A DNA stretch of 46,901 nucleotides from Punctularia strigosozonata HHB-11173 SS5 (taxonomy: Eukaryota > Basidiomycota > Agaricomycetes > Corticiales > Punctulariaceae). This document shows, piece by piece, positions 1-46,675 of this stretch. The DNA lies in NCBI RefSeq assembly GCF_000264995.1, contig NW_006767439.1, forward strand, positions 1,719,311-1,766,211. Reading direction: 5' to 3'. Under the pieces are notes generated by a model. It was not told the origin of the DNA and searched no databases. It saw nothing but the letters and a program-made list of their open reading frames with translations. The position numbers were made by a program, and so were the translations under genes. Numbering within the stretch: position 1 is the stretch's first letter; every line of letters begins with the position of its first letter.

Positions 1-406
1 TTATCACATCACACGTTTATTTCAACTTTTTACAATGCCACATTATTCCCACATATTCTTGCATCATTTCTCCACACTATTTAATATTACAACATTAACA
101 CCTATACTCGGGTGTGTGAACAAACAAATTTAGTTTGGTTTTTTGCACTGATTTTGAAAGAGGTATTTTATTATCTGGAGAGCCAAAACTTGCTGTGTGG
201 CTATGCAGCCTAGTGTCCATTGATTCTATCGCATGGAGGGATTTTTGGAGGATGATAATGACCCAAGTTGATAGACCCACTCTGTCCAATCCTCAATTCC
301 ATGTATTCAGTAAATCAGCTGTAGCGGCCGAAGGAACATTCCCACGGTCATGGGAGTGTGATATTCGGATTCCCACGATAATTCTGCACAGATTGAGGTA
401 CCCGAC

Positions 407-443
407 GGAATTGAGCCTCAATTCCATCCGAACACAAGGATAG
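407..443 (+). repeat. Diverged hairpin terminus, copy A
   Basis: A perfect 8-bp stem (407-414 paired with 418-425, loop GCC) is followed by 12 bases and then GGATAG at 438-443. This is the geometry of three better-conserved copies at 11585, 16182 and 46599. The block before the stem (about 390-406) only weakly resembles the conserved CCAAANCTGAGACGGGC of the others, so this is the most diverged member. The rest of bases 1-642 holds no gene I can support. Confidence 0.5.
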
Positions 444-642
444 GGGTGAACTGGGAGTGGAGTACGCAACGTACGTTCTTCACATTCTTGCGCAATGGTG
501 ATGGTCTCTAACCCTGTCTTCAACAAATGCCCGGTATTTCGATGCTCGTGTCACTCGTAATTTGTTCAACAACTTTGTATTGTACTCGCCCAATGCGACC
601 GACCTTCCCTGCCCTCCGCACGAGCCCCAGAATCGCCTTGCC

Positions 643-2650
643 ATGGCTTATCGCTATCCTATCGGCCACCTCGGCGCACATGAATGGTTGCTTCATCCTC
701 AGTTTTACGAAGCGACAGAACCGCATCTCCCTTGGATCCCAACACCGCACGCGGGGTTCCCTAGCGGGTTCGTCCATGCCGAACTCACGCAGATGCACGA
801 CTACGTCTGCCTATCTGGACCGTTCCACAAGCTCACGGACATGTCCGTGGAAGTTTATAAGCGACACAGCGATTTCCTTAGGCGCTGGTGGGAGTCAGGC
901 AGAGTGAGCACGCCCCCGGTGCACGGTGGCGACGAGAGCAAGTTCGTCCTCGCCGACACCGTTATCGCAAGGATGCACCATGCCGTGGTACACGCCGTGG
1001 TCGAGCACGGGGTTCACCTGGACAACCTCATGATCCTGTCCTCCAACGCGCAGCGGAGTCTTTTTGAGGCCTGGGGCTTGTACTTCTGGTTCCAGGCACC
1101 CCATGTCAACCCTCGTTTGACGACCTGGTCCATTGTCGGCACGTTCGTCACCGACTACCAACGGCTACGGGAGTTGTATGACGAGGGCGTGCCGGTCTGG
1201 ATCTTCATCACCCAGGCCAAGTTACTGCAAAACATGGCGGTCGCCAAAATCCTCAACGTGTTTCGTGAGGAAGAGAATTGGGACATCAATCGTCATAGTG
1301 GGAAGCCGGTGGAGATTGCCCTAGCGGGGGCTAACAGTGTCGTCGATAAGCTGCAAAGGTCTTTGCCGTCATCGTACGTGACGACCGCGGGGCACATACA
1401 CGGTTCTATCAGTGGTGTTGAGACGAGCGAGTATCCCGCCCTCGTGAACACCAACGAATTCGGACTTGCAAGCGTCCAATTCAACTCCATCTACCACGCC
1501 AGAGAGTCTGAGGCGGTCGCGGGTCCATCACGCTCGCAGCCCGTGGCGGGTCCGTCGCATACGACAAAATGTACGTCGTCTCTCCTTATCTTCAAGCGCA
1601 ACATTTGCTGACACGCTGGTTTCAGCTACGATGGCTGCCCGTCAATCCGCGTTGCAGGTTTACGTGCCACAGCTCAAGGGGCAAACACAAGACGAGAATC
1701 GAGGTCGACAGCTTCAGGCGGAAAAGGTGACCTTGTACAACACCATCGCGGATCTCAAGCGCGTATTGATGCCAGCCCCGATCCTCGCCGTCTTCAAGAT
1801 GCTCATCACGAGTGTTCCCGTCTCCGTCAACCGTCCGTTCATGATGTCGACCCCACCCCTAACGCTTATCACCGCCGATGGTACCGCAACGTCAACAAAC
1901 TGCCGGTATGGTTGGGTGCAATTCCAAGCTCTCCTCGGCAGCGTTCGGTTTCTCCACTCGTTGGAGAACGTCCAATCGTTGCAGTTTGGTCGCATGGCCT
2001 GGAAGGAACTGCTGAAGACCGACAAATGGTCGAAGCTTTTCGATCCTGAAGCTGCGCCGCAATCAAAAGACGAGCGCCTCCTCGTCGTGGTCACGACCAT
2101 CCGCGAGCTGGCAAGCAAGTGCCACGTTGCGTTCCCGACAGTCGACCCCAACATTTCGTACTTTGGCAAGAAGGTGATCGCCAGCGACGTTCAGAGCGCG
2201 GCCTGGGGATCCCTAATCATCTGGGACATCAACAAACACGCCGTCCACCAGGATCTTCTCCTCCTCGCTTACCGTTTCCTTGGGCGCAAGTACCGCGACG
2301 GGAAGGTGCCAATGAAGACCTTCGAGGATACCATCGCCGCCATCCGCGCCTGCATGGCGGACCATGCTTTCGACTTCGACCGCAAACCTGCATCTTCGAA
2401 CGGCTTCAGGAACGCGGACGGGAGAACGTGGGGCGACTATGTATACGCGCTGGTGCTCTTGATGAAGGATTGGAAGGTCGCAGGGTCGCCGGTGTTGCCA
2501 ACGTACACGCTGAACAGAGAGCAAATCTCGAAGTTGTCTTACCTCGCGTACGAAAGAGTGGTCGTCAACGCGTACATCACGACGTTCCGCGATGAGTTCC
2601 GCCGACTCCCCTCCCTCCCCTTCCAGCACCCCGGCATCCCTCCTACGTGA
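643..2650 (+). CDS. Orphan hypothetical protein, two exons, 650 aa
   Basis: Exons 643-1570 and 1626-2650 join across a 55-base GT-AG intron (donor GTACGT, acceptor TTTCAG) and close at 651 codons including the stop. I took the ATG at 643 (MAYRYPIGHLGAHEW); the frame is open 27 codons further upstream but without an ATG. I do not recognise a named domain. The first half is rich in Trp, His and aromatic residues, a short Ser/Pro linker (AVAGPSRSQPVAGPSH) ends exon 1, and the second half is mostly helical in appearance. It resembles uncharacterised proteins that recur in Agaricomycete genomes. It converges on the giant recombinase-helicase gene, with 385 bases between stop codons, and lies 200 bases downstream of hairpin copy A. 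It could be a companion or passenger of that repeat-rich region. No function is assigned. Confidence 0.72.
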
Positions 2651-3035
2651 GTCCCTCGACGCTGTGAAGATACAATCTCGTGTACCATGGAGCATATGTT
2701 AATGGAAAGATCTTGCTGTACTATATCTTATTGAGCCTTCGTGAATACAACGTAGAGTTTACCTCGCACGAGCCCGAAACAAGCCGTCAAGTGATTCAGC
2801 ATGACACACGGGCAAGAGTATTAGCTTACACACACGGGAATCATCTGATATGAGGGTCGAAGCTTGTCACAAGGGAACAAGTACATTCACGCAAATAGGA
2901 TCAGATCCCGAGGTATGGATTGCGAGTCATAATGTACATGAGCAATGAGACTAGTTGGTCACAATACTGAAGCTAAGTATGAGTACGTGCTGGAGATATA
3001 TATATGAGCAATACAATGAAGATCTGCCAACAGAT
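2651..3035. other. Convergent intergenic gap
   Basis: These 385 bases lie between the stop codons of two convergent genes. The stretch is AT-richer than its neighbours and presumably holds both 3' ends. I see no gene, repeat or clear terminator in it. Confidence 0.5.
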
Positions 3036-6000
3036 TCACGTACTGAAAATACTGAAGGCTTCGAAGATGGTCCAAACGACGTAGAAGAATCGGTAACTGC
3101 AGCCCGGTTGAGAATCAAACAACCACCGTGATATTTGATCCAGCCGTGTGCTGAGGGAAGGAGCGAGTCCGAGGAGGTCTTGATATTGCCCAATCCGAGC
3201 GTGAACGGCTTCACGGAGATGGGGGTTGTGGGCATAAACGAAGGCGACGGGCAGAAGGAGTCGGTTGTTGTGATCTGGCGCACCACATATGTCGCCAGAT
3301 TTTGCCCTCGAAGGCCAGGCCCTGTGAATCTTCGGAAAGTTGCCGCACTTCGCCTGGTTGATGAACGTCAGTCAAAGTATAAGCAACCCGTCAAGGCAAT
3401 GGCCTTACTGTCGTGAACCCGCACATCCAGCAAAGACCGGGTTTCTGGGTGTGAGCCTTGAGCCATCCGATGTATGTTCCCCGGCCCGTTTTCTGGAACA
3501 TTAGACAATCCGTGATGGGATGTTTGACGTAGTGATCCACATTTTGGATCCGACAGACGACGCATGTCTTGGCCGCTAGTTCCCTGATTGTTTTGAGGGC
3601 CTTGGCAATCATGGACGTTTGGAAATCGAGTGCCTGGGATGTTGCAATATTCACCTCTGTTTGAGGCGGCCGTGTCCAGTCGAAGGTCGCAGCGCTGGGG
3701 GGTGGAAGCAGGACGACCGGTGCTATGTAAGTATTTCCCTGTGGCACCGACAATGGCGGTGGCGATGGCAAACATTCCCTGTAACGAAGGGTCAGCCAAA
3801 ATGCGCAAGTGAGAGACCGAGAAGCTTACGCTGAAGCCGGGTGGCGATAACCCCTGGCATGATAGGGCATAACCTTGTGAACATTCGGCGGCAGCGGCCG
3901 CATCTTTTGGTTGATGGGCGGGGCAGAGCGTGTCAGCGCCAAGGTTCCTTTGTAAGAATTGCGGTGCAAAAGGGTGCCGCCAGACCCGCACGAGGACTCG
4001 ACGATGAGCTCAGAGGTTGAAGTCAACACGCGAGGTTGCGTCTGCGTCGTGCCACGTGGTTCACACGACGAGGGACCATCCTGTTTGCGTGCTGGAACAG
4101 TGAAGTTGGGGAAAGGTCCCGTGAGTCTAGTTACGTTAGCGAACGGCGTCGGCGTCGGGGACGACGACGGGAGCTGAACCAACCCTTGGCGGCGTCCATG
4201 AGGGTGCGGGGTGGGGCTGCCGGATAGCGAGCTGCCGAACACGTCGTCAATTTGCAAAGGAAGCACCGTTCTTGGAGTTGAGGCCATGGGCCGTGGCAAA
4301 GGAAGACATGTGGCGACGGATGAGGGCAGCGCGGATGAAGGGGGATTGGATTTGTTTTGAGGCGCTGGGAGGTCGCTGAATATTTGACAGGCCATGGAGG
4401 AAGGTATTGATGACGGGGTGCTGAGCGTGATATAAGTACAACCGATGCCCTTGCCCTGGATTTGCTTGTCCAATGCAATGGTGTTGATGTCCATGTAGAG
4501 GTCGTTGTCGCCGTCGGACAAGCCGTATGTTGTCTCCGAGCATAGATCGATTATTCCATCATGTCCGTGCTTCGTGGCTGGAGGGGAAGGAAGTGCGGAT
4601 GGCGCGGGCGCGGGAGGCGTTGCGGGACGAGGCACGGGAGACGAAGAAGGAGGGAGAGAGTAACTGGGAGCAGGAGGATGCGCGGGGATGGTCGCTTCAT
4701 TCTGCCTGTGTATGAAATCAGAAATATGAACGGTGTTGATGCACGGACGGGCACACGTACCTTGCACGAGCCACGACCAACTCGCCAACGCCTGGGAAGG
4801 CCATGACATTGGGACACGGCAGCCCGTCGGTCAACGGGAGGTAGGGGCGAATGGTTGACTCGCCCCAGGCCGGATCCTGACGGGGAAATAGAAGAGGAGG
4901 AGGGCGGCGGATAGCCTCCTCGCAGTTCATGCATAGCTGGACATTTGCAAGCTCCAGGCAAGAAATATTATGGCCGTCAAAAAACTGGCTGAAGGGAAGC
5001 TGCAAGCAATTGGTAGAGCGAAGAGCGGAAACGATGTCGGTGTCACCTAGGAGGTTGTGTGCCTTCGGAGGGTGTCGGAAGAACTTGGGGTTGGTGATGT
5101 CGATGAACCATGCTCGGGCGGGTTGTCCATCGCGACCAGCCCATCCTGACTCTTGCTGGGCGAGTAGGAAGTTGCTGGGGAGGCCAAAGAAGAACACATC
5201 GCGGACATGTGGGACGTTAATGCCGTACCCGAGGGCGAGAGTCGCCGTGACGAGTGGACCAACTTCAGACCATTGGTCGTAGACCTCCTTTTGCTCTTGT
5301 GGAGGCAGCTGGCCCGAGTAGACCTGACAAGATAGAACTGTGGAGATGTCTTCGCACTGGCTCACGGAATGTGCGAAGACAATGGCGCAATGCTCGGGGC
5401 CATAGTTTTTGAGGCGCTCCTCAAACTCCGCGCCAATAAAGTCGATAGCTTTATATTGGTCCGAGAAGTGACGATACAGATACTTAATCTCCGGTCGAAT
5501 GATTGGTGCACAAACGGTCTGGGGCTGGCGGCTGCCCAATGCTGACAGCAAAGTCGGGAGGATACGCTGCGGGGTGGTGGCCGTGAGCAATATAACGTGC
5601 AGGCTGAGAGCTCCGAGGCGCGCGAGCTGATGGAAACAGTCACGAAACGATGCATGTTCGACGACAAGGTGGCATTCATCGAACGCCAGCACAATGAGCT
5701 TCGTAAGCACAGCTTGATCTTGTGCCCATTGGTAGAACTCCCGAGAGGCGGCGTGCTCGGGCGATACGAGGATCACAGACGCTTCTGGGGTCTGATTATC
5801 GAAACCCCACACACTGTAAGACAGATGCAGTCGTGTACATTTCTTCGCCCACTCTTGAAGCAACGCAGAGATCGGTACGACGACCGCGATAAACTTGCCG
5901 CAGGGCCTGTAGTAGTGCGCGATGACAAGCGGGACGAAACTCTTGCCGGCGTTGGTAGGCAAGACGGCCAGCACATTGTGACCAGCCAGCGCGTTGGTGA

Positions 6001-9000
6001 TGGCCTCGCCTCGTTCAAAGCAACAGAAAGACATGTCCAGGTCACGGAGCAGGTCACGAAGAGCCTTAAGTGCCAACGCCGGGATTTGCTTCTTCTCCTT
6101 CGGAAGTGTTTGCTGCGACTCAGATACATGAGGAATGACAGAAAGGATGGAGGAAACTGTATGCGCGAACGACGGGTTCAGTGCGTCAGCCACACCACTG
6201 AGCACAAATTGCGCCGTCTGCTTCTGGGACTCAAGCGTCGGAACGCAGACTACCACTTGAGGATTGACAGCAGCGGAGGCGGGTGCCGCCTGCGGCGAGT
6301 CGGGATGGGCACAAAATCCGAGTTATGATTGATGAAGCTGAGAGCCGTACGTGAACCCTCGCAGTTGGTATGGGCTCACCGACCTCATCATCCAAAACGA
6401 CAAGGCGTAAAACCTATCTTCCGTTTCGGGTGTATGACCTCGCTGCTGGGCCATGATTCGGTGCCACCAATGGAGCGCATGTTGCTGCATGTCTGCGTCG
6501 AGGTTCAGTTGGAAAGCTTCAACTGCGGCAGACACGGCGCGAGCGTCGTGAATGTTCAGTTCCACGCCGAGATATTTTTGCATAAGCCCAGTCCAGGTGC
6601 TCCCAAGCACGTCGGGTCGTCGGGTGCCTGCTGCCAGAGGGAATACATCGTCATACATCTGCATCCGCGCGTCGTGGCCGTGAGTCTGAGGACCGGTTCA
6701 GCATTGAAACGTCAGATAGAAAAGGGGAAGGTTGGCTCACATCCTCTACGAGATACTCCATCGCGGGCTGCACGATTACCTTCGACCAAAGCAGTAGCTT
6801 GCGCAGTTGTTCCGGCACGAGCTTGGTGGTGACCTTCTGCTTGCCGGTTGCACCAAGGTTCTTGTGGTAGCCGGTGACGAAGTAGAACTCATCGGTAAAC
6901 ACGTACAGGCTCCGCATATGTCCCTGCTGAGTGTTGCTGCCAATGAGCGCCTGCCATTCCGTTGCACGCCCAGGGGCACCGCAAGCAAACCAGGTGATGG
7001 CCAGGAATATTTCCTGGACGCGGTTGTAATGCGCGTAAACTTTTTTGACCTCGGCGACATGCCAAACGGACTTGCCGGGTAGAGCCTTTTTGTTCACAAA
7101 ACGTTGGCGCGTGCGCTGAGTCGCGGTCCATAGTTTGAGCAGAGTCTTGCGGTAAGATTCGAAATTGTTGTCCGGGTGCAGTGCGAAGGAATAGTGCAAG
7201 GCTGTATTGTGCGGCGAGTCTACCAAGCCGGTCCGCTTGAAGTCGAACACCATGTGAGTAATGGGGATGCCGCACAGAACTTCATCCTTGATGATGCGCA
7301 TGGCTTCCTCTGCGGCCTTCAGTATCGCATCACCGATCGTCAACATGCTGATGACCTTCCCGTGATGAGACCAGGTCCTGTAGTTTTTATCGGCGAATTG
7401 AATCCACGGCATGCCTTCGTCGTCCAACCGAATGCTGCAAATGAGTTGATGCGTGCAGAGGACGAAGCCAAGTGGCATAGACGACTTGAGAACAAGACAC
7501 TGGTTGATTAGGTAAAATATCCTGAGGGAAACCATTGAGCAGCGGCATCACGAATTGACCGGAAACATGACTTACTCAAGATATGGCACGTCCCTCTCTT
7601 GCGAGTACAAAACACCCTGCACGAAGGCAGAGAGACGACAGATATAGAGAATAGGCGATATCATGTGCGCGATGATGGTGGCAAACTTCAACTGTCCGTT
7701 CGCGTCGTACGAGCTGAGCACGAGAAAGTTGTACAGGAGCGTGTAGAATTTACTGGGATTACAGCTGACCTTTTTGTGAGACACGAGAGACCAGAGGAGA
7801 CGGTGAAGAGGCTCGATGACGGGACGATCGGCGCCAAAACGTTCCATGTTAGGCGTCTTCATGCGATCCTCCTCCAGCTGCTCCATGCTGACAGGCAGCA
7901 CGTTGTTTGCGTACGCGTTCTCGAGCTGATTGAACAACTCGAGAGAAGAAGTCCGCTGGTCGTCCGTGAGAGGCATAGTGACGTTCTCAGGAAGGGCGTC
8001 TCGAGCGGCGTGGATGGCAAGACGCAGGGCAGGGATGAATTTGCGGACATAATCAGGCCAGGTCTGGGTGCGGCGGATCGAACCCTTGTACTCGTCTTTC
8101 CTGAAGAACAATGAGACTTCGGATTCGACGCGAGAGACGGCGGATGGACTTACAATCCGATATTAACAAGCTTCGACTGGATCATGTAGGTTTCATCCTC
8201 CAAGGCGTACAAGGCGACGTCAATATACCGTTCAGAATAAAGCAAAAGTAGATCGACGATGTCCGGATCATTCAATTCGTCAAGGATCTCTTGAATTTCG
8301 GTGCCGCTCTTGCCCTTCACGTAGCGTAGCCATCCTTCTCGCAGCTCAAACATTGAGAGCTGCCGAAGGTTCTCTGGGGATTTGATGGGGACTTGCTCGA
8401 AGTCGGGTTCAATGAGCCGCGAGTTGACCAGATTACAGGCCTCCTTGGCTGCAGCATCGTTGATGATCGGCTCCATTGCGCAATACTCGACAGGGAAGTA
8501 CCGCCGCATCCGACTGCCGCTGAAAAACGTCTGAGCCTTCGCCCGATAAGTGCGCTGAGAAGAGGGGACGGCGGAGGAGTCGGAGAGCGCGCGGCACTTG
8601 TGCGTGCGCGCCAGAGAACTTTTGGAGACGGAAGCGTGATTGCAAGACGAGCAGAAAACGATGGATGGGTGGATCTTGAGGCCATAGTGAATCTTGCGGT
8701 TGCGCGGCACGACCTTCTTCATCTCGCGAGCACCGCGAAGATCATGGAGAGTACAAATGGCGTGGATGCGTTCAATTTCGTCGTAAGAGAGGTGTTGATA
8801 ATGGCTGTTATTAAAGTGCCCGTGCAAGTGGGCAGGGTCCCACGCGTATCCACACCGTTCACGCATGCAAATAAGTACATGGTACTGCATATCCACTACA
8901 CAAAATGCTCGTTTGAGGAGGCTTCTGTCTTCATCATTGTCCAGCTGCAGGTGATGCAGGCCCGGATGGACTGTGGCCTGCAAGCGACGGATCTCAAGCT

Positions 9001-10064
9001 TCCGTTCTTCCGTGCTGAGATGCCCGGGAATGTCCGGCGATCGAAGAACGGGCTCGCGTTCCTCATCCGAGCCGACGAGAATGTCCTCGCAATCTTCGTC
9101 TTCATCTTCCGATCCACTCTCGCTGACAGAAGATCCACCACGGGAGGAGGGGCGGTAGCTCGAATCGTAATCCGAACTGCCGTCTGGGAAGTTGCCTTGA
9201 GGTGCAGTGGAAGGATCAGGAGGGGCAGCCGCGGTAATGTCTTTCGGGGCCGCAACGTCTGGCTCAGGGTCCGGATTGACATACTCAATGTCATCCTCTT
9301 CAACGTCCCCATGAGACAAGGAGTTATGAAGAGGGGGAACGCGTGGGTCCAACACCTCATCGGAGCTGCAGGCGACGTCCCGTTTGACCCTCTGACGAAG
9401 ACGCATCTGCGCATTGATATTACGGTGCACCCCTGTATCTTCATTGGCGGCAGATGACTCTGTGGACGAGACGCGCTTGCGCTTGCGGGGAGCATCAAGA
9501 TGGTGATCCGAAGGTAGCGGAGGCCGAGGTTCGTTGCCGCGAATGGTATCCGGCCATCCAGAAAAATGACGGGCTAGTCCACCAAACAGGCCGGAAACTA
9601 CTGCCCCTAGACGACCGCTCGGTGAAGGGTCAGGCGGGGAGGGTTCGGTGGGGAATGACTGGGAAACTTCCGATAAGGGAACGGGCAGGGAGGGAGGGGG
9701 CGGATGAGGTGCGGCGATCACAGCGACCGTCGCTCGCGTCGCAAGCTGTGTATTCATGACACAGCATTCTGCCCTCGCCAGATGAGTCTGCAAAAAAAAA
9801 GTTAAATGAATGAAACACTGAAATGACTAATCAGAAACGTACCCGGAAAGCCTTCGAATGGCACGTCTGCCATGGACAAAGGGAGCAGTGGAACATTCCC
9901 GTCGACTGGTCGCGCGGAATGGCATATAGGTTGCCGTCCTTTCCCGTGCATTTGACTTCCTTCTGGTGTCGTCCCCGAACATACACATCCTGCGAGTCGT
10001 ACAGATCATCGTTGGGATAGGGACAGTCCGGCGCAAAGCACTTGTACAAAACGGTTGGAGTCAT
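3036..10064 (-). CDS. Zinc-finger / tyrosine recombinase-like / RecQ helicase fusion, about 2,186 aa
   Basis: Nine exons read on the minus strand: 9843-10064, 8154-9787, 7576-8100, 6741-7521, 6380-6685, 4761-6289, 3830-4705, 3409-3778 and 3036-3353. They total 6,561 bases and close in frame. Residues 1-74 hold a Cys/His cluster (C9, C14, H33, C39, C60, C63, C68). An acidic low-complexity region with a basic PRKRKR patch follows. Residues 381-472 carry two C2H2-like fingers resembling OrsD/DUF3505. Residues about 900-1150 match the tyrosine-recombinase layout: R979 in GAPGRATEW, Lys 1014-1023 in a hairpin, H1100-xx-R1103, and GHTPETEDRFY ending at Y1147. Residues about 1190-1600 are a RecQ-type helicase with TNAGKSF (about 1268), DECH (1360), LTATTP (about 1391) and QESGWAGRDG (about 1535). 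A Pro/Ser linker and a Cys cluster (2030-2084) end the protein; I see no RQC or HRDC domain. RecQ-type helicase genes of this kind are known near fungal telomeres. A role in mobility or recombination is inference. The intron at 6290-6379 (90 bases) is the least certain junction. Confidence 0.85.
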
Positions 10065-10962
10065 GACGCTGGCACAGCAGGCGAAGCGCAAGAATGGGCG
10101 GGGCGAGAGTGGAGACGGCACCGACGAACGACGAAAGATACTGTCCGGCGAGCACGAACCCGGCGGTGAGGAGATCCCGAGATCCAGGGACCAGGTAACG
10201 GGCTAAGCAGTCTTGAATGACGACCAAGGGAGACGGGGGGTCCGGAGTCCAGCGGAGGGAATGGGGCACGAGGATCTGAAAATACGACCGAAACAAATGG
10301 AAGGAACGAGTCCTTCCGCCCACTGACGTCGAGACGAGCCCGACGCGCGGTTTAGCAAATGCGGTTGAGGGGATATTGGAGGGAGCTGGTGGCCGCACAG
10401 CCACAAGTAGTCACTATCGAAAAGGTAAGTAAAAAAAAACCAGAGTGAAGTAGGAACTTACGTCTTCGAGAGAGAGAGGAGACCGGCGGAGAGGTGGGGG
10501 CAAGAGGAAAAGGCGGGATATGGGGGGAGCGACGTGAACGTCCTCATTATGAGGAGAAATCTGAAATGTAGCAACTTCATCAGCATCCGTAAAAAGAAAA
10601 AGAAAAGTGGAAAAAGACCCTCCTGACGTCGTAAAACGACGCCGGAGGGCGTATGACCGGGATCGTTGAAGAAAAAATTAAAAGGAAGCCAACGAGGGTG
10701 CACCTGATGCCGTCCCTTGCGACGCATACTAAACGCCCTCGTCTTGCGGGCAGACAGGGCACACGTTGGCAACGCCGAGCTATGTAAGCCTGCCCCGTTG
10801 GGGGCGGGAAGGGCGCGGATGGAGACGCAGGCAGAGGCGGAGGCGGGACAGCAACGAGACGGGGGGCAAAGAGGGGAAGAAGCAAGAGGGAAGACGTCGA
10901 GTAGCCCTAAGCCCAACACCAACCATCACCATCAGCGCTCATCAGGGATCGACAGATGGAAT
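10065..10962 (-). other. 5' leader and promoter region of the fusion gene
   Basis: I find no convincing start upstream of 10064. The stretch aligns in patches with the region upstream of the truncated second copy: around 10270-10340 with about 14598-14668, around 10620-10665 (CCTCCTGACGTCG and GACCGGGATCGT) with about 14945-15010, and around 10745 (CTTGCGGGCAG) with about 15080. Donor-like GTAAGT strings on the minus strand, for example near 10458, suggest spliced 5' untranslated exons. ORFs here do not resemble known proteins. Confidence 0.5.
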
Positions 10963-11147
10963 CCCACGATGAAGCCTGCGTCGACCGTAAACAGTTGACA
11001 CAAGATTCCTTTCGCACGGTCTGCGTCGGGCCGGGGACGCACGGGCAGTGTTACCATGCGACCGGCGGCGTCCCACGATGAAGCCTGCGTCGACCGTAAA
11101 CAGTCGACACAAGATTCCTTTCGTGGCAGTGTTGCCATGCGACCGGC
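10963..11147. repeat. Two-unit tandem repeat, about 109-bp period
   Basis: A block starting CCCACGATGAAGCCTGCGTC begins at 10963 and again at 11072, each followed by ACACAAGATTCCTTTCG. A second block (GGCAGTGTT.CCATGCGACCGG) is also doubled. The upstream end of the second copy also carries tandem repeats sharing the motif CCCACG and GGCAGTGT, at about 15.45-15.76 kb. Confidence 0.7.
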
Positions 11148-11584
11148 GGGATCAGCAGAGCAGAGGGTGTTCAAACAAAAACATGCATAGATATATTCCT
11201 GCCATATGAGTTCCCGCACCAATATTGAGCCGACTCGGATATAGGTACTTTCAGACGTTTGGAATGGGTTCACATAGCTCGACGCACAGTATTTACTTAG
11301 CCGTTCTTGCGCAAGAGCGTCGACGCACTTTGCTTTGTATTTTTTCTCGAATTAAAAACGTCGACGCATCGCGATTAAAGACTCATATCGCCGTCTAAAA
11401 TCACGTAAAAATGTGTAGGGGATGCGGGCAACGTGTATCTATTTTCTGAGCCCCCGACCATTGCTACACTGCCACATCCGCACTCACAAAGTGATGTTCT
11501 TCCTGCTGGAAATGCGATTTTTTTAATGAGATTGGCTCATACATTTTTCCCACGATGTTCCGACACTATACACACAACCTGTGG

Positions 11585-11661
11585 CTATGTAGACAATATA
11601 AAAACATCCAAAACTGGGACAGACGGAATTGAGGCTCAACTCCTAGCTGGGCCATGGATAG
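11585..11661 (+). repeat. 77-bp hairpin terminus, copy B
   Basis: The order is CTAT, 19 bases, CCAAAACTG.GAC, stem GGAATTGA (625-632), loop, TCAACTCC (636-643, one mismatch), 12 bases, GGATAG. Copies C and D have exactly the same length and order. The coding homology of the neighbouring pseudogene ends within one codon of base 11661, which fixes this as a true element end. The element would extend leftwards. Bases 11148-11584 hold nothing else I can identify. Confidence 0.72.
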
Positions 11662-14335
11662 GCGGATGGTGGACACGATCTGATTCATGCAAAGGACGAG
11701 CCTGAGCGGCATACACGACTCGACGAGGAGACATGGCTGGATGAGAGGGAATATTCTAGAGAAAGACAATGAGCGAGATTGATCCAAGATAAAAGCAAGT
11801 TCGACTCACTCGAGATAAGGAACCTCCTGCTCTTGAGAATATAGAACACCCTGCACGAAGATGGCCACGCGACAGAGAAAGAGAAGCGGAGCAATGACAT
11901 GCGAGATTGATGTTGCAAACTTGAGGTGGCCCTGCGCATCGTAGGAGCTGAGGACAAGATAGTTGTACAACGGGGTGTAGAACTTGCTGGGGTCGCACCC
12001 GACCTTCTTGTGTGAGACGAGGGACCAGAGGAGGCCGTGGAGTGACTTCATGATATGACGATCCTCGCCGAAACAGTTCATGAAAGCCTTCTCCTCGTGG
12101 TTGGTTTCGAGCTGTTCGAGATCGACAGGCTGGGCATCCGTGTCGTGTGCGTTCTCGAGGTGCGTCATCAAGTCCCGGGCGAAGGCCCCCTGGACCTCCG
12201 TGAGCGGCAAGGAGAAGTCGTCGGGGAAATCGCCGCGAGCAGCACGGAGGACAAACTGAAGAATCGGCATGAACTCGTGGACATATTCGGGCCAAGTCAT
12301 TATGCGACGGACACAACCCTTGAAATCGGGTCGTCTACGGGAGAGAGAGAACAAGATTTAGACACAGCACAATGTACGGGGAGAATGAACGCGACTCACA
12401 GTCCGATGTTGGCAAGCTTCAACTGTATGATATACGACTCGTCCTCCAAGGCATACAGGGCGGCGTCGACATATCGCTCGAGATAGAGGGCCAGAATGTT
12501 GATAGCCGGAGGATCACGAGATTCGTCCAGGATGGCTTGAATCTTCTCACCCGACATGCCGCGCACGTATCGACACCAACCTTCACGCCGTTTGAAGACA
12601 GAGAGCTGACGTAGATTATCCGGCAACTGGATGGGAATTTGCTCAAAGGCCGGTTCAATGAGCAGAGGCTTGACGAGACTCCAAGCTTGCTTAGCCTTGG
12701 CACTGTTCGTGACGGGATTGACCGGTTCGTATTCAACGGGAAAGAACCGGCGTTCTTTCTTGTTGTTGAAAAAGGTCTGAGCTTTTGCTCGGTAGGTTCG
12801 CGGTGCATTAGGGGCAGAACGGACGGGCGTGGCTTTACATTTATGCAACCGGGTGTACGAAGCCTCCGTCTCAAAACCATGGTGATAGCGCGCGCAGAAG
12901 ATGATGGACAGGAAGAGGGCGAGACCGTAATGAATCTTGCGGTTGCGAGGCCTGACCTTCTTCATGATGGCGGGGCCTCAAAGGTTAAGGGAGACGCATA
13001 TTGATGCGACCGAATCGATTTGCTCGTCGGTCAAGAGATGGCGGTGTTCGGATTTAAAGTGACCGCGTATACACTCGGGGTCGAGCGCGTATTGACATTT
13101 GGTGCATATAATTATTCTATACTGGGTGTCGACGACGCAACGAGCCTTGCTCATAACACGCTGGGATTCCTGGTCCTGCGGCTGCCAATGATGGTCGCCC
13201 CGGTGCACGGTGGCCTTCAAACGCTTGATCTCGAACACTTGTTCGAGGGGAGGGAGGAGGGGAGAGATGTCCGATGACCGGACTACACGCTCGGGCTCAG
13301 CGTCTGAGCCCTCCCAGATATCTTCCCCAACGTCAACGTCTTCGTCGGGGGGAACCTCCCCATCAACCTCTACATCAGGAGACGGAGGGGTCAGGACGTA
13401 GCTGCTGTCGTGATGAGACTGAGAGTCAGTCGCACCCTTGGTGTCATGAACGTAGCTGTCCTTGACATTGTTGTTCCCAACGCTCGCTTCACCCGCATGA
13501 GCATCAGAGGAATCCCCGTCGCCGCCGTCGCCGCCGTCATAGTACAGGTCGCCATCAGGGTCGTTGTTGTTGTTGTCGCGAGCGAGGGAAGAGATGGACG
13601 CCGGAGCAGGTGTGGAGGCCCCCTCGTCGTCGGAGGAGCGCATGATGTGTTGGGTCTTTGGTTGGGAACACAGACGGTGGCGGGTGTCCCCCGACTGGCT
13701 CTCTTCGGCAACATTGGACGATGTCGCGGTTGACGAGCCTCGTTTCCACTTGGTGGGGCCATCGTTGTCGACAACATGCCCTGCCAGTGAGGATGATGAT
13801 GGTAACGACGCGGGTCGGCTAGAGGAGGGGCCTGACCCTAGAGAGAACCGGCGAGCCAACCCTCCCATCAGTCTTGTGACCGCTGTGCCCAAACAGCTGA
13901 CAGGCGACGGCTCATGGGTAGGGGGCAAACCCTGCGGAATATGGTGTGGAGGTGAAGGTGATGGCGGAATGTGTATGGGGGGGAGGACGGCGGGCGCCTG
14001 TCAACGAGGTCTCCCGAGGGAGGATGAGGCCATCAGGCCGGGGCACAAGCCGCTCCGAACGTGATCCTGTCAACAAATCAGCAATGCGAAACACAACATG
14101 AAAGCGATATACATACCCTGAGGGGTCGGAAGCTTTGTGATTCGTACGGGCAGTAAGGGCAGCGAACCATATACGTGTCCGGGTCGCGAATGAGGTTGAC
14201 CACCTGGCCGTCGACTGTGGTCCGGCCATGCATCTGATGCCAAGCCTCGTGGTGTGCGGCCGCGTTCGTGTAGGCGTAGTCCTCGGTGCATGGACACGTC
14301 TTGTCCATGCATCGGTACACTGCGGCGGCGGCCAT
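11662..14335 (-). pseudogene. Truncated paralogue of the zinc-finger/recombinase/helicase gene
   Basis: Pieces align in order with the gene at 3036-10064: exon 14117-14335 (MAAAAVYRCMDKTCPC start), exon 12400-13997, exon 11810-12334, and the start of the next exon at 11662-11755. Splice positions and phases match the intact copy (for example VPYLE then IFPLIQPCL). Three defects are visible. A TGA at 12978-12980 interrupts the zinc-finger region in frame. The second finger has lost a Cys (FCSSC in the intact copy is FCARY here). Homology also stops at 11661, before the recombinase and helicase, where hairpin copy B begins. The junction 13998-14116 needs a 119-base intron; a 50-base alternative with acceptor at 14067 runs into a stop. 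The reading frame is otherwise long and well conserved, so decay is fairly recent. No complete product is expected. Confidence 0.8.
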
Positions 14336-15310
14336 GATGAGGGAGACCGTATGAGAGCGGCAGTGAGGCGGAATCGGGGCAACGAGGAGGCAAGGAGAAC
14401 TGCTGCGATGAGGACGAGGACAAGACAAGACCGGCAACCGCGGGGATCCAGCGACGGCCGAAGTCTTCGGGCTCGGGGCCCACAAACAACGAGACAGCTG
14501 CCTGAAGATAAGCCGAAACAAGCGGAGGAACAAATCCCTCCGATGGGGCGATCCAGCGGCGACCGAGGTCCTGGGGCTTGAGGCCGATAAACGGCAGAAA
14601 CAAGGGATCTGGAATTTGACCGAGACAAGCGGAGGAACAAATTCCTCTGCCCACAGCCATTGAGACGAGCTCATCAGGTGGATAAGCGGCTAAACACGGG
14701 AAAAGGGCCGTACTTACGCGGCTGCAGCAACAACTAACGGTCATCTGCAATGCCAAATGCGCGTTAGCCGCGCATACAAGCATGCGAGAGGGGGGACTTA
14801 CCTGCTGCCGAAGGAGCACGTTGGTGGGGTGAGTGGTGGTGGAGAAAAAGCCGTGTCGCGAGGACGGTGGCTCATATGCATCCTGGAAAACAGGGGGGGG
14901 GGAAAGTTAGCAGTGTCGGAAGCAGATACTCAAAAGCGATAAATGACCTCCTGACGTCGAGGCGACTATGCACCCCGATGCCGGAGGTTGGATGACCCGG
15001 GATCGTCGCGAAACGGAACCAAAAAAGAAGGTGTTTACTCACCTTGCGCCCCCTTCACAACAAATTCGCCAGCCCTATCTTGCGGGCAGCGATCGCCTGC
15101 GTTGGCAGCAGCGTGGAAGGCCACCGCCGCCGCCGGTGGCGGCGGGCGGGAGAGAGGGGTCGGCGTCAGCGCAGAGAAGAACGAGAGAGGAGGAGGGCGG
15201 GAGGCGGGAGGCGGGAGTCGAGTGACCAGCAGGCGAGCGGGGCAAAGGGCAAAGTCCAACCCCATCAGCGCCCAGGAAGCTGATGGACAGCTCGATTTCC
15301 ACGCCCCCGT
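14336..15310 (-). other. 5' leader of the truncated copy, with internal duplication
   Basis: This is the counterpart of 10065-10962. It contains an imperfect direct duplication of about 106 bases starting GATCCAGCG at 14444 and again at 14550, both ending ACAAGCGGAGGAACAAAT. Several minus-strand GTAAGT or GTGAGT donor-like sites (near 14710, 14800 and 15040) suggest spliced untranslated exons. No protein is recognised here. Confidence 0.5.
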
Positions 15311-15451
15311 GACTTGATCCCACGCTCACCGTCGATCCCGACCAATCCGGATATTGCTGTGGCGATACCGGCCCGTGCGGCCGGGCAAAGGCCAGACGCC
15401 ACATGGCTTAATGTGGCAGTGCCGTGCCGCGCGTGGCGCCGAATAGACCGG

Positions 15452-15760
15452 GTCCCACGTTCACCGTGGCAGTGTCACAACGTGCGTCGCTCACTGTGGC
15501 AGTGCCTTGCCGCGCGTGGCGCCGAACAGACCAGGTCCCACATTCACCGTGGCAGTGTCACAACACGCGTCGCTCACCATGGCAGTGCCTTGCCGCACGT
15601 GGCGCCGAACAGACCGGGTCCCACGATCACCGTGGCGGTGCTACAACACGCGTTTGCCACGCAGGCCGTGTCCCACGTTCACCGTGGCAGTGTCACGACG
15701 CACGTTCTGACCCCCTGCCGAGCTCGCCAAAGTCCCACGATCACCGTGGCAGCAAGCAAT
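15452..15760. repeat. Minisatellite, 83-bp unit
   Basis: GTCCCAC begins at 15452, 15535 and 15618, exactly 83 bases apart, followed each time by a TCACCGTGGC core. Shorter degenerate units follow to about 15760. Within a unit the core GGCAGTG recurs. It sits at the upstream edge of the truncated copy. Just beyond it, CCACCAA (15778-15784) and TTGGTGG (15789-15795) form a small hairpin. Confidence 0.8.
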
Positions 15761-16181
15761 CCTCCCGGCAACATCCCCACCAAAATATTGGTGGGGTAAT
15801 GCCCACAGCACCTTAAATCGCGAAAATATTCAGGGAGGTACCCATCACAATTACGAAGAGGCGTTGTCAGACAGTGAGTAGCGATTCAGTTGGGAACCGT
15901 CGAGAAAAACGGACGGTGAATTATGAGCATCATTTCTTTAGATTTAAAAAACCAATTGTTCGATGAATACTGCAATTTATGAACCTTCTAAAATACAGAG
16001 AAAATGACCGGAGGGAGGGGCTTGGAGAACACGATTTTTTGACCTACTAATCGTGGGAATATAACGGCTGAATAATCTTGCAGACCCTTCTCACCATTTT
16101 AGGAGGATACGATGAATTACGGAACATCCACCAATATAACACGGGGTGTGGAAAGTACCACTGGACTCAGCACGTCTGTGG

Positions 16182-16258
16182 CTATACACTGACCCCCCAA
16201 ACAGCCAAAACTGAGACGGGCGGAGGTCAGGCTGACCTCCTAGCTGGGATGGGGCTAG
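16182..16258 (+). repeat. 77-bp hairpin terminus, copy C
   Basis: This is the best-preserved plus-strand copy: CTAT, 19 bases, CCAAAACTGAGACGGGC, perfect stem GGAGGTCA (222-229) with TGACCTCC (233-240), 12 bases, GGCTAG. The stem sequence differs from copies A, B and D but pairing is kept. The element would extend leftwards into 15,800-16,181, where I see no gene. Confidence 0.75.
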
Positions 16259-17449: not shown

Positions 17450-19519
17450 ATGTCTGCAGGCTTCAGGATAACTCCCGCGTTATGGGACCGGTGAGTGCAA
17501 CGTTTTCATGTTTCGTTCCCTTGCGGATACGATCTGTGTTTTCGTCCATAGTGTCTAACTCAATCCTCACTAGCATCCACCATTTCGCATCTTTCCCACA
17601 AACTGGAGGCGAGTCTCGTCTGCTTACGGTTTATTCGTACAGTGAGCTCATGTCGATGTTCAGTCTCACTGCAGCAGATGGTATTGTTTGGACAGAATCC
17701 ATCACAGGGAACGCTGTTGGCCGCCAGTCAGTTCCTCGGTGGTGAGTGGCGCATCACATCCTGTTAGCTCGTCTCTGATATGCCCTGAACGCCGATGCAG
17801 AAGAACTCCCAATCCGACTCGCACATCGTGTTAAGGAACTCGATACTCTTCCTCACAACTTGTCCAAGATGCCTAGCATCGAGAAAGTGAAGAACTGGTA
17901 TGCGCATAGCTTTGAGGTACGGTCGGCGCCTCTGCCATGCTCGCTCAGGATCGCCCAATGACGTTATGCGCCCAGGAACTCATCAGGTTTCCCCCTCCAC
18001 GGCTTCCCTCGGATCTGCGGAAGGAGCTGGCTAAGGCGGAAAAGGCTGCGCGAGAAGAGGGCGATGCCATGCCAGAAAGTATACCTAATCCCAGCCTAAT
18101 TGGTGCGCTACACGCGTCCAGCATCTAACACAACGCTGAGGATCTATCTAGGACTCGGAGATGGATATACGGGAATCGGGGCTGGACCGATAGGCGACTC
18201 GTTTGTTGGTTACTCAGTGAGTGATCACTTTGTTGGTGACGAACTATACGTCGACGTATGCGATCTCGTACCATCGTAGTCTCCGGCCGCTCAGGGAACC
18301 GGCATTGGTAACAAGTTCAAGTTACGTGTACCCATGGAGCGAAGGTACGCCATGAGTTGTTTGCTTACTCTATCGTGTCACACTCAACAAAGGAAGGTAC
18401 TATGCGAACCCAAGGCTCATCGACTGGCCGCCGGAGGTGCACGACTACAATGCCCGGTTCACGAAAATGTTGGAGAGGATAAAGAGCCGGCATGATCCGA
18501 CGGTCACTACGGTGGCCCAGGTATGTAAACCCGATTCAACACGTCTTCCTCCCCACTGACGAGCGATACTAGGGTGTGCTGGAGTGGAAACGATCTACCA
18601 ACGCAAGGCACATTGGTCTTGATATCCAAGCGTGGCTCGATCGGTTCTACATGTCTCGTATAGGGATCCGTTTTCTGATCGGCCAGCGTACGTTCCCGCC
18701 GTTCTTCTCCGAACAGCCAATCTCATGTTCTTCAGATATCGCTCTCAACAAACATGAGAAACACCCCGGGTGGGTCGGGATCATCTGCACGGAATCCAAC
18801 GTGCACGATATCATCCAGGAGTCTATCGAGAACGCAAGATTCGTATGCGAAGAGGTACGTTGCGTGCAATACGATTCATCGTATATCACAGTATCTCAAA
18901 CTAGAACAGCATTACGCTATGTTCCGAGGCCCTCCCGTGGAGTTGATTTGCCCACCGGACCTGCAGTTTGCCTACGTTCCTGGCCATCTCTCGCATATCG
19001 TGTTCGAACTCCTCAAAAACTCGTTACGAGCGGTCGTAGAGCGGTATGGCCCAGACTACCAGGACAATGGAGGTTCGCAGGCAGTATGTTTTCTAACCGC
19101 ATCCATGCTTATCAAAATTCCAGGCTCCCAGAAACGCGAATACCCAAAGATCCGCGTTATCGTCGTGGAAGGCAAGGAAGACATCACGATCAAGATCTCG
19201 GACGAAGGGGGCGGTATTCCGCGATCGGCGATCCCGTTGATATGGACGTACATGTACACGACCATGGAGGGCCAAGCTATCGACCAGGACTTTCAAGCGA
19301 GCGACTTCAAGGCCCCGATGGCCGGTTTTGGCTATGGCCTACCGCTCTCGAGACTGGTACGTGGAACCGGTCGACCAGGAAGTCGCGCTGCTGACGACAC
19401 GTTATCAGTATGCGCGGTACTTCGGAGGCGACCTTCGCTTGATATCCATGGAGGGATACGGCACGGACGTCTATATACATCTGAACCGTTTGTCCAGCAG
19501 CCGCGAGCCCCTGCCTTGA
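17450..19519 (+). CDS. Mitochondrial pyruvate dehydrogenase kinase (PDK/BCKDK family), 463 aa
   Basis: Thirteen exons close at 464 codons: 17450-17490, 17574-17608, 17664-17741, 17801-17916, 17976-18102, 18152-18216, 18280-18344, 18397-18520, 18573-18687, 18736-18854, 18910-19072, 19124-19356 and 19409-19519. The family phosphorylates the E1 subunit of mitochondrial 2-oxoacid dehydrogenases to inactivate it, using a GHKL-type ATP site. Visible hallmarks are FGQNPSQGTLLAASQFL near the N terminus, the conserved His in LPIRLAHRVKEL (H60), the N-box ELLKNSLRA (E328, N332), the SDEGGGIP motif (about 375) and the GFGYGLPLSR motif (about 417). Intron 2 (17609-17663) uses a GC donor. The 51-base intron 19073-19123 has no stop in frame. 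PDK is favoured over BCKDK from overall similarity, but the substrate is not proven. Confidence 0.9.
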
Positions 19520-19946
19520 GATTCCACTGCTGGGTGAGCCATACGAGAAATCCAACAGTCATCCGGGCGGTGGCGTTAGCGGTGCAAACGCTCCGTTTTA
19601 TCTTCGGGTAACATGTACAACATTGCACCATACCATCCCATCAATGGACTCTCCGATACATTATCTCGTTCATATCATCCTATAGACTAAGGAGATAGTA
19701 CGACATCTCGAGATGCGGTCCGGCAAGAAGAAGACGCAGGAGGGTATGAGAGAATAAACCTAGTACATAGCCTACTTTATGCAACCATGCTCATACTGTA
19801 CATGTAAACGTGACGACGGCGTGTACGACCACGGGAGAGAGAAAAGAAAAACCAATGTTGAGAAGCGAACGAACGAGACGACGGCAACCAGCCAGTCAGT
19901 GTATATACTTGCATGGCAGCCACGGAGGAGCAGCCTAGCCTGTTTA
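19520..19946. other. Convergent intergenic gap
   Basis: This 427-base stretch lies between the stops of the kinase gene (+) and wc-1 (-). It should hold both 3' untranslated regions. No gene or repeat is seen. Confidence 0.4.
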
Positions 19947-22605
19947 TCAACCACCGCCTCCGCCGTCCACCGCGTCCCAAGACCGCTTCGCGCCCACTTT
20001 GCCGACCGGCCCGACGACATCATTGCTCAACCTCCATCCGCCCAGCGAACTCGGAGCGCTCGTCGACACGCTCCTCGCGTTCCGGGCAGCCGGGTTCTCT
20101 CCCAACGTCAAGCCAGCCGCCGAACTCCTCCGCGACGCACCACCGCCGCCTCTCGCCGCCCGCTCGGCCGCGGCGAGCGACGCCTCGAGCGCCTCGACCT
20201 CCTCCTGCAGGCGCAGGTTGCGGAAGCGCAGCTGCTGCAGCTCAAAGTGCCAGCTCGAGTCGCGCGACGTGTCGAGCTCCTCGAACAGGTTGGCCGACGG
20301 CGGGTGGACGCTGGACGAAGGCGGCGCCATGGACGACGCCGGCGCGAACGCCGCGACGCGCACCTGGACCACGACGGGCGCCGCGGCGCTCGGCTGAGGC
20401 ACGTCCCGCCGCGCGCGCGCGAACGACGAATCCCACTCGTCCGAGTGGAAGAGCGCCACGTCCACCTCTCTGCCGCGCATCCTGCACCGCATCCTCCTGA
20501 TCGCCTCGCCCGCCCGGCTCTCCGTCTCCTTGACCGCGTTCCTGATCACGCGCGCGGACTCGCCGTCGTCGTCGTCGTCGACGAGCTCGACGAGGGACCG
20601 CCCGATCACCTCGCCGACGCCGTAGCCCGTCATGTGCTTCACGCCCGCGCTCGCGACGAGCATCGTCCCGCCCGGGCCGAGCATACCCCAAAACTCGCCG
20701 TCGGCAAGCTCCGCCTTGTCCGCCGAGGAAGACGCGGGCGGTCGGACGCCCGCCGCCTGCGTGACGCGCCGCCAGTCGACGGAGGGCATGTTGCGCCGGC
20801 GGCCGGACAGGATGATGGCTTTGCGGCCTTTTCCGGGTTCGACGTGCAGCCGGCCGCGACATTCGATCCAAACGTAGTGCCCGTCCTTGTGCCTCGCGCG
20901 GAAGAGCAGGTCGACCGGCTTGGGCGGGGCCGATGCTACCTGCTACGGAGACGCGAGACGAACGTCAGCGCACGGGAACCGCGTATCTCGTCCGTCCCGG
21001 CCCAACTCACGGGAACGGCGACAGACTTGCCCTCTCCATCGTCTTTGGCCGCGGCGGCAGTGGTCAAGGATGGGTTAGGCCCAGAAGACTCTTTAAGCTC
21101 GCGCATCAGGGGGACAATATCCGCCTGGAGGCAATAATCCGTTATAGATTTGCCTATAACGGGGTTAGACCGGATAGCATATGAAATACCATGCAATCTC
21201 AAAACAATACGTACCTGTCAGTTCGGCGGCGTCCCAGCCCAATACTCGGGAGACGGTGGGGGCGCAGTAGAGAAAGGCGCCCTTGAGGGAGAGGACGTGG
21301 ATAAAGTCGGGCGAGGAGTTCAGGACGACGGAGGGCAGAGCGTCTGAAAGAAAAAAAAATGAATATTTCGCGGGAAGCTGTCACCAATGCGCATATACGC
21401 ACCGATACCGATCGCATCGTTCTGTTCGACGGCCGTCTTGTCCTCTGAATGAGACAACGAACGCAAGAATGCCTCGCTGCTCAACAACTGCCGCAAGTCG
21501 TTCGCTACGGCGCTCCTAGACACGGTGTGAGCCTTGCTCCTGCCGCTGCCGACGTTCGGCCCTTGGGCGGTCGAAGCGTAATTGACGACGTAGCTGCCGT
21601 CCTTCAGTCGCTGCAAAATGGCGTTCGGCTGCTGGGTGAGATCGACCTGGAAACCGACGACAAAGGCGGCCTCTTCGCCGGGCGCCGGCGGGACGGGGAT
21701 AAGGGAGACGAGGTTGACGAACGCGTGGCCGCCCCTTTTGTAATTGATGAGCGACACCTGGCACTCTTTGCCGGCGGCGAGGGCCTTGTGCATCGTGCGC
21801 ACGCTCTCGGGGCTCGTCCACTTGCGCTCGTCGGCGCGCTGGACGTTGCCTCCCGGGGCCTGGAGAAAGCGGCAGTTCCTGCCGAGGACGTCGGCTTCGG
21901 GGTAGCCGGTGAGCTGGAGGAAGGTGGGCGAGGCATATATGATGGGCTGATCGAAGCGACGGGTGTCGACGACGGTGAAGGCGCAGGTGAGGTCGACGGG
22001 GCCGAGCGTGATGGACGGGTTGGGCCGGTGGACGACGCGGGCGAGGAGGGAAAGGAGGTCGAAGCCGGAGGAGGAGTAGATGGGGAGCCCGAACGTGGAC
22101 GGGTGGTTGAGGAGCGGGAAATGCGACTGCTGTGCCTGCGGCGGGGCGGACGCGGCGGGCCAATGGAGGCTGCTGGGGGGCGCGGGGGACGCGGCGTAGG
22201 CGGCAGACGAGTCGAGGTAGGAGTCGACGACATCCTGGCTCTCGCTCGATCCCGGGCTGCGATAGACCGTCTCCCCAAAGCTGGCAGCGGGCCGTCAGCG
22301 ACGCGATCTTTGCCGTCCAGGACGGGGCGCGCAAATACTCACTCCGAGGAAAAGTTGTTGGTGAACCAGGCCTGGCTCAGCGAGCTGGACGAGCCAAAGC
22401 CGGCGGCGAGGAGGCCTGCGGGGAGGACCTCTGCGCCTCCGCCATGAGCGAGGGTCGGGGGGCCGCCGAGGACAAAGTTGGGGAGCTGGAACTGGAGGCC
22501 AGCGGGCGCGGGGTGCTCGGCGAGTGGGCGGTGTTGGTGGGGCGCCTGGGAGGACGCGGGGTCGTCCTGGAAGTATCGGTCGAAGGGCATGGTGCTCGCG
22601 GTCAT
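19947..22605 (-). CDS. wc-1: White Collar-1 blue-light photoreceptor, 801 aa
   Basis: Five exons (22343-22605, 21403-22280, 21215-21343, 21011-21153, 19947-20939) close at 802 codons. WC-1 binds flavin and, with a WC-2 partner, activates light-induced transcription in the nucleus. The LOV domain (about residues 150-290) carries GRNCRFLQ with the photoactive Cys at 224, and NYKRGGHAFVNLVSLIPV. PAS-B follows (SSPDFIHVLSLKGAFLYC, then DIVPLMREL), then a third PAS (GGTMLVASAGVKHMTGYGV, about 550). The C terminus has an Asp run, a coiled-coil-like stretch (LQQLRFRNLRLQEEVEALEA) and no GATA zinc finger, as is usual for basidiomycete WC-1. The donor of intron 2 could be GTGCGT (used) or GTATCG six bases earlier. 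A run of 13 C on the coding strand lies just before the ATG. Long plus-strand ORFs here are antisense shadows of GC-rich codons. Confidence 0.93.
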
Positions 22606-46598: not shown

Positions 46599-46675
46599 CT
46601 ATCCATGCCCCAGGGTGGAAAACAGGCTGTTTTCCGCCCGTCTCAGATTTGGTTGATTACAGCCTACATGCATAG
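46599..46675 (-). repeat. 77-bp hairpin terminus, copy D (reversed)
   Basis: On the minus strand: CTAT, 19 bases, CCAAATCTGAGACGGGC, perfect stem GGAAAACA (paired with TGTTTTCC, 46617-46624 and 46628-46635), 12 bases, GGATAG at 46604-46599. Length and order equal copies B and C although the stem sequence is different. The element would run right to or past the window edge. I see no gene in 46676-46901. Confidence 0.78.

Follow-up and report, generated by a model that had tools for sequence, protein, structure and literature searches.

A telomere-linked RecQ helicase with a recombinase-like middle domain, carried by a candidate mobile subtelomeric unit in Punctularia strigosozonata

Telomere-linked helicase (TLH) genes have been known since the 1990s and are recorded from many fungi. 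Chromosome ends also house telomere-attached retrotransposons (HeT-A, MoTeR, Coprina), which are arranged head to tail, have a fixed proximal end, are truncated on the telomere side and are confined to chromosome ends; the telomere elements of flies are added terminally after erosion. In integrons, the integrase is a tyrosine recombinase that acts on attC hairpins, of which the structure and not the sequence is kept, beside a conserved triplet. Turning to individual reports, subtelomeric RecQ genes are described in passages of PMC4522978 and PMC7593156, according to the relevant part of PMC7473861 these subtelomeric RecQ helicases yielded no further domain beyond the helicase core, and PMC10532341 contains a passage on OrsD in UTASb of Ustilago. 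A RecQ helicase is mentioned in a passage on Academ transposons (PMC3627910), and a title in the reference list of PMC4289320 places a RecQ helicase-like gene within the CPA element of Tolypocladium. Cryptons, finally, are characterized in the section concerned by terminal direct repeats of 4-6 bp, and CryptonF by a GCR1_C domain (PMC3212892).

The gene described here is a subtelomeric 'telomere-linked' RecQ helicase, and it lies in a unit that ends in a hairpin. Like the TLH genes of Ustilago (UTASa/b), Agaricus bisporus var. burnettii and Mycosphaerella, it encodes a RecQ-type helicase and is present in many subtelomeric copies, and an association with OrsD is common to its family and UTASb; the passages on these genes (PMC10532341, PMC7473861, PMC4522978), however, mention neither a recombinase-like domain nor a hairpin-ended unit. 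The Y-prime repeat of yeast is likewise subtelomeric and carries a helicase gene, but the passage on it in PMC4522978 speaks neither of a precise hairpin end at AGG nor of a recombinase domain. With Academ (PMC3627910) and the Tolypocladium CPA element (the title cited above), the unit shares a RecQ-like gene in a repetitive or mobile element, whereas a recombinase domain and a hairpin end go unmentioned in those lines. A Crypton, itself a mobile element of fungi, resembles it in the R..HxxR..Y pattern of its recombinase and in a short shared sequence at the join. It differs, by the section cited (PMC3212892), in being two-ended with direct repeats of 4-6 bp, whereas here RecQ is fused, neither GCR1_C nor a recombinase family is matched in Pfam, and only one precise end is seen, the other being truncated in units A, A-prime and those of contigs C30 and C2. 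The open-access literature, a scope that leaves most subscription papers and all preprints outside, yielded no paper joining a tyrosine recombinase with a telomere-linked helicase; the open-access papers that combine recombinase, RecQ, fungi and telomeres are unrelated by their titles and the openings of their abstracts.

The window, i.e. the whole stretch of DNA analysed, is 46,901 bases long and closes contig C7; the assembly, of 33.57 Mb, comprises 32 contigs (64 contig ends). A run of Ns adjoins the window directly on the left (C7:1717198-1719310). Its gene for fingers, recombinase-like domain and RecQ was modelled on the minus strand as six exons with GT..AG introns that form a single open frame of 1679 aa; additional 3' exons, reaching about 3394, are possible.

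4721..10064, minus strand: whole gene (OrsD-type fingers, recombinase-like domain, RecQ), 1679 aa up to the first stop
9843..10064, minus strand: exon 1 (gene model)
8154..9787, minus strand: exon 2, Cys/His finger region (residues about 75-619), with OrsD in paralogues
7576..8100, minus strand: exon 3 (gene model)
6741..7521, minus strand: exon 4, recombinase-like domain with R979 (box I) and K1014 (gene model, alignments)
6380..6685, minus strand: exon 5, with H1100-x-x-R1103, G1137-H1138 and Y1147 (gene model, alignments)
4721..6289, minus strand: exon 6, RecQ-type helicase core (Pfam)

The residues and numbering listed in an earlier note on this DNA proved exact and all fall within this one spliced frame, where CGAPGRATEW starts at 974 (R979), GYHKNL at 1011, NIHDARAV at 1098 (H1100, R1103), GHTPETEDRFY at 1137 (H1138, Y1147) and the helicase motif GKSFVPL at 1271. 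That a RecQ helicase follows the recombinase-like domain directly was borne out by Pfam (Helicase_C 1.4e-10, DEAD 1.7e-10). The OrsD-type fingers named in the same note take their label from paralogues, OrsD being matched at window 12978-13928 (E 2.5e-6) and at six places in the genome; the finger exon of the window gene itself gave nothing in Pfam at E<=1. When the exon model was carried over by alignment to the paralogue on C30, it gave matching splice borders and 1679 aa without a stop, with the motif residues present. The two copies differ at 201 coding positions; going from C30 to the window, 160 of the changes read C>T or G>A (132 at CpG), against seven such changes in the opposite sense. 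One-way CpG decay of this kind over 4721-10064 is typical of repeats that are methylated or silenced, and the C30 copy looks fresher. The dN/dS ratio between the two (0.40 overall, 0.32 in the domain) was discarded as evidence because CpG decay dominates their differences.

The genome contains two clades of this helicase gene, between which the recombinase-like domain is 21-26% identical:

Clade A, domain open: window and C30, both 1679-aa frames
Clade A, decayed copies: C7:1708-1713 kb and C2:804-808 kb
Clade A, fragments, including: window 11660-14335 and C7:1668-1671 kb
Clade B: C2:10-15 kb, C24:22-28 kb and C7:1684 kb (one stop in the domain)

The clade B genes on C2 and C24, although represented by partial models, have fingers, middle domain and RecQ in the same order as clade A; a run of Ns lies upstream of the one on C2. 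In keeping with the earlier remark that RecQ-type genes cluster near telomeres, copies of this multi-copy gene are found near the ends of four contigs: several on C7, one on C30, which has telomere repeats at base 1, one on C2 at 10 kb from telomere repeats, and one on C24 at 22 kb from the low end. A decayed helicase unit also sits at C2:803857-808144, 0.8 Mb inside a 2.9-Mb contig and far from its ends. On C7, a cluster of helicase units (1665000-1736000) has the orientation of a low end at 30-100 kb from the high end, among N runs; because of these runs its position is uncertain, and the cluster is either a former end that has become internal by fusion or an artefact of scaffolding.

How good is the evidence that the middle domain is a recombinase? 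The order and spacing R...K...HxxR...GH...Y, from which the earlier note proposed it, are not above chance by themselves, because 136 (loose) or 46 (strict) of 5000 shuffles of the same protein carry the pattern too; the residue pattern alone is weak evidence, and conservation between the clades the better argument. In an alignment of the four domain-open copies (two per clade, both decayed clade A copies omitted), which are 23-26% identical between clades, R979, K1014, R1103, G1137-H1138 and Y1147 are among 39 invariant columns. A five-copy alignment retains 27 such columns, including K1014, R1103, H1138 and Y1147, with R979 not among them; the clade B copy at C7:1684 kb enters none of the alignments. 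The proposed residue set is thus conserved only in part, i.e. for the R, K, second R, GH and Y of the domain-open copies, H1100 being replaced by N in clade B and R979 by H in both decayed clade A copies; by the refuting condition set in the earlier note, both replacements count against a recombinase. Arginine is probably the ancestral state at 979, because clade B also has it. Its loss was considered as CpG decay of the CGT codon of the window and C30, an explanation rejected since the decayed copies read CAC, which CpG decay would produce only from an older CGC; such decay and a single older shared change could equally account for the histidine.

Comparisons outside the family add a likeness that we would call suggestive at best. 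A profile of six domain rows, two of them decayed copies, was set against 87 bacterial and phage recombinases (seven named, 80 from IMG/VR). The global score was 11.9, a value that one of 200 column shuffles attained. The unsupervised alignment pairs GRATEWQAL with LRVSELVGL, HDAR with HVLR and GHTPETEDRFY with GHSDLSTTQIY, leaving the K unpaired; the local score was reached by 14 of 200 shuffles. Sliding windows of 212 residues (two rows, n=43) scored best at 1051-1262 (16.8, next 8.9), a segment containing HxxR-GH-Y, and the one from 945, which holds the entire domain, scored 3.1. Against seven recombinases and seven unrelated proteins, one-sequence hhalign gave no separation, and a single-sequence fold, with an intron read through, was uninterpretable (pLDDT 35). 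The domain had no relatives in Pfam (E<=10), among PDB sequences or in the viral and prokaryote collections, sub-threshold matches being limited to Pfam Argos (E 0.0074, below its cut-off) and four unrelated chains (E 0.14-0.63). Taken together with the conserved residues, descent of the middle domain from a tyrosine recombinase seems probable to us; recombinase activity we rate lower than this ancestry.

The Cryptons and Starships to which the earlier note had pointed were dropped as labels because no recombinase family of Pfam was matched. Scans of the gene and unit frames found neither GCR1_C nor the DUF3435 of Starship captains, and comparison of the profile with ten recombinase-type proteins encoded in this genome was without signal (matched by 80 and 156 of 200 shuffles). 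The ten belong to 15 places matching Pfam Phage_integrase, two of them over the cut-off, that are scattered in the genome, and most of the ten show HSFRIGG / GHGIRVG boxes.

The unit that carries the gene is delimited most clearly on its proximal side, and in the window parts of three elements follow one another:

1..441, plus strand: element X, proximal part only; hairpin at 407-425, ends GGAT at 441; N run to the left
442..11659, plus strand: unit A, 11.2 kb, carrying the helicase gene; oriented by its right (proximal) end, left side cut at 442 inside the companion gene
562..2650, plus strand: companion gene, convergent to the helicase gene; probable intron 1571-1625
11614..11659, plus strand: unit A, its end on the proximal side; 11625-11643 form the hairpin GGAATTGAGGCTCAACTCC with a single mismatched pair, and 16 nt up to GGAT follow
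11660-11662: target AGG joined to unit A
11660..16256, plus strand: unit A-prime, truncated at 11660 within its own helicase gene (residue about 826), proximal end kept
16211..16256, plus strand: proximal end of unit A-prime; arms of its hairpin GGAGGTCAG/CTGACCTCC
46617..46646, minus strand: inward-pointing, satellite-type hairpin end close to the contig's high end

Element X abuts unit A inside the companion gene of A, and A abuts A-prime inside the helicase gene of A-prime, so that inner units are cut on the telomere side, outer units are attached by their proximal ends, and the stack runs head to tail. At 442, where the end of the other element abuts, the relative at C7:1704373 continues leftwards. 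A copy on C30 is collinear with the window from 1804 to 11662 (9.3 kb shared, about 94-96% identical, with a small local repeat near 10962-11123) and then diverges: window and C30 stop at the same base on the proximal side, where the former goes on into the truncated helicase gene and the latter into an unrelated 575-aa frame. On the other side, telomere repeats of C30 pass straight into the unit at the position of window 1804, and the low end of C2 starts with telomere repeats, followed by what remains of a unit tail (309 bp), which ends at about 507; telomere repeats hence directly abut truncated units at both readable assembled ends, C30:1 and C2:1. In unit A, unit A-prime and the C7:1715 kb unit alike, the precise end is found 1.6-1.9 kb upstream of the start codon of TLH. 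The companion gene, the second of the two genes that unit A shows, has no Pfam match at E<=1, and the GT..AG borders of its intron recur in the C7:1704373 relative; it is present at four genomic places, at one of them inverted (C7:1664312). A word recurring near 404 and 11622 had been considered as the terminal repeats of one element, and comparison of the junctions revealed, instead, the proximal ends of three units in a stack. Inward of the array, at 18754-35244, the window holds ordinary-looking frames with HATPase, ABC1 kinase-like, CAP-Gly and BTB domains.

The proximal end recurs throughout the assembly. A pattern with the flanks and the outer and inner hairpin bases fixed, the central four bases on each side free and at most one mismatch allowed, i.e. 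one that makes no demand for complementarity at the varying positions, was found at 29 places, its reversed control at none. Most of these (24 of 29, 23 of them within 2.1 kb) lie less than 7 kb from a contig end, and 23 of the 24 point inward, the exception being C2:2933144, which points outward near the high end of C2. The end on C30 is counted as inward because telomere repeats stand at base 1, though the other contig end is nearer (3.3 kb); with it, 24 of 25 point inward, and 19 different ones among the 64 contig ends are represented. The remaining four, all on the plus strand, belong to the cluster on C7 and lie 30-91 kb short of the high end of that contig, and C24 has none, though it bears an intact-looking clade B gene.

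The 29 ends comprise 19 distinct 49-mers followed by 27 different sequences, and their hairpins are of three main arm types, GGAATTGAG, GGAGGTCAG and GGAAAACAG, each with a full or near complement. Covariation was assessed on 14 chosen rows, namely 13 of the 19 distinct 49-mers plus element X, six 49-mers being left out. Pairing holds in 95.2% of the cells and 21 cells are changed on both sides, values as high as which occurred in 0 of 500 shuffles for either measure, counts that are not probabilities because the rows are related; sliding the hairpin partner destroys the pairing. Two of the five measures were not unusual, namely the pairs changed on both sides (4, reached in 130 of 500 shuffles) and the pair types (7, in 149 of 500). 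The hairpin has been preserved by compensatory changes, and the tail that follows it is fixed. An outer 3-bp stem, present in two of four DNA folds, is not claimed; it fails in unit A, and the z-scores of the folds are only -1.2 to -1.9.

The sequence on the far side of the join is constrained as well. Directly after GGNT (GCGT once) stands AGG at 23 of 29 places, an AGA-type triplet at five and ACG at one, a doubled row from contig C5 having been dropped from the count. For 12 of the 29 joins, representing 10 distinct target sites, an uninterrupted homologue of the following sequence could be consulted, and it has AGG at the position of the join in nine sites and AGA in the tenth; one join that itself reads ACG has AGG in the homologue. 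The match includes the T before AGG at four of the nine sites (satellite, tail and repeat targets), and at one of these four it is longer, GGCTAGG. Among the sequences joined in this way are two helicase genes, element X at three places, tails of units and satellites; two cases of a satellite after a satellite might be tandem copies. Joining is specific on both sides, because a precise hairpin end meets AGG that is already found in uninterrupted homologues. The suspicion in the earlier note of a mobile element or self-propagating subtelomeric gene gains substance from these AGG joins and from the inward hairpin ends at contig ends, and the unit very probably has a specific end and is added at chromosome ends.

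What would carry out this addition? The most far-reaching answer, to which we give a probability of roughly 0.3, is that of a DNA element specific for chromosome ends, the transposase of which would be the fusion of OrsD fingers, tyrosine recombinase and RecQ, and which would have its single-stranded hairpin read by structure and joined at AGG to eroded ends, somewhat as the integron integrase treats attC; TLH genes would then be selfish telomere-capping elements. The comparison with integrons is by analogy only, relatedness in sequence forming no part of it. Units would attach by one of their ends to chromosome ends that had eroded or broken, a terminal addition after erosion that we infer because the inner units are cut on the telomere side and the outer ones are attached proximally. 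In this scheme the TLH fingers would bind the unit, the RecQ domain would open the end and supply single strands, the hairpin would be recognized by its shape in single-stranded form, and the recombinase domain, through R979, K1014, R1103, H1138 and the nucleophile Y1147, would cut at the hairpin end and join AGG. That the recombinase domain catalyses the joining is a doubtful proposition; our main reading, of a TLH with a middle domain of tyrosine-recombinase descent carried by a mobile subtelomeric unit, is one we hold tentatively, at a little under even odds.

A fixed 3' end, a truncated 5' side, a stem-loop with compensatory changes and a 3-nt match at the join are equally what would be left if an RNA with a 3' hairpin were copied onto a chromosomal 3' end CCT by the enzyme of a telomeric retroelement acting in trans, with TLH as a passenger. 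Such reverse transcription, unlikely in our judgement, would also explain the orientation of the units, which is that of telomere-attached retroelements such as HeT-A. The units resemble these in being arranged head to tail, in having a proximal end that is fixed and a telomere side that is truncated, and in being confined to chromosome ends (exceptions being the four C7-cluster ends and the outward one at the high end of C2), but differ from them in that no reverse transcriptase was found among the frames scanned in the unit, in having genes on both strands and in keeping an intron. A possible source of the enzyme is seen on C30, where the 575-aa frame that follows unit A (10400-12190, with interspersed CCCTAA blocks) has weak reverse-transcriptase similarity, in NCBIfam to Drt3a (E 1.9e-7), Drt2 (0.0022) and retron RT (0.0088), all below cut-offs; it has no Pfam or PDB match, and it may be a telomere-attached Coprina or Penelope-like element. 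In unit A itself, by contrast, a Pfam scan of nine frames returned no reverse transcriptase, the main gene is antisense to the RNA in question, and the companion gene, which is on the sense strand, retains its GT..AG intron in both the window and the relative. Reverse transcription in trans explains the shape of the end equally well, but fits the antisense gene and the kept intron less well.

Nor does the behaviour of ordinary subtelomeric helicase repeats, which spread by break-induced replication and unequal exchange in the manner of Y-prime, seem sufficient. Here the hairpin would be an old boundary and the likeness to recombinases a dead relic or chance, a view to which the collinearity of C30 and the window over 9.3 kb, far beyond the gene, the CpG decay of the window copy and the broken state of several others lend themselves; yet exchange between homologous ends gives no precise end in front of 27 different sequences with AGG, and the key residues are kept in four copies. 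Because that end is joined to so many sequences at AGG, exchange alone is insufficient, and we regard this explanation, too, as unlikely. Helitrons are known for a CTRR end and an A-T target word, and rolling-circle-like elements, Helitron or IS91-like, typically combine a variable end with a precise hairpin end that abuts a short target word. A one-ended transposition of that sort, with its enzyme elsewhere in the genome and the hairpin as terminator, would match the general look of the unit, but its end is not CTRR, its word is not A-T and it is mostly confined to chromosome ends, all of which make such an origin improbable.

Why, then, do TLH genes sit at telomeres? With a precise end that is common to TLH units and is found at 19 contig ends, this becomes a direct question, and the present observations suggest that telomere-linked helicase genes are mobile elements adding themselves to chromosome tips. 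Should the TLH protein indeed move the units to the ends, they would parallel the telomere retroelements of flies on a DNA basis, and their transposase would be a eukaryotic fusion of recombinase and helicase.
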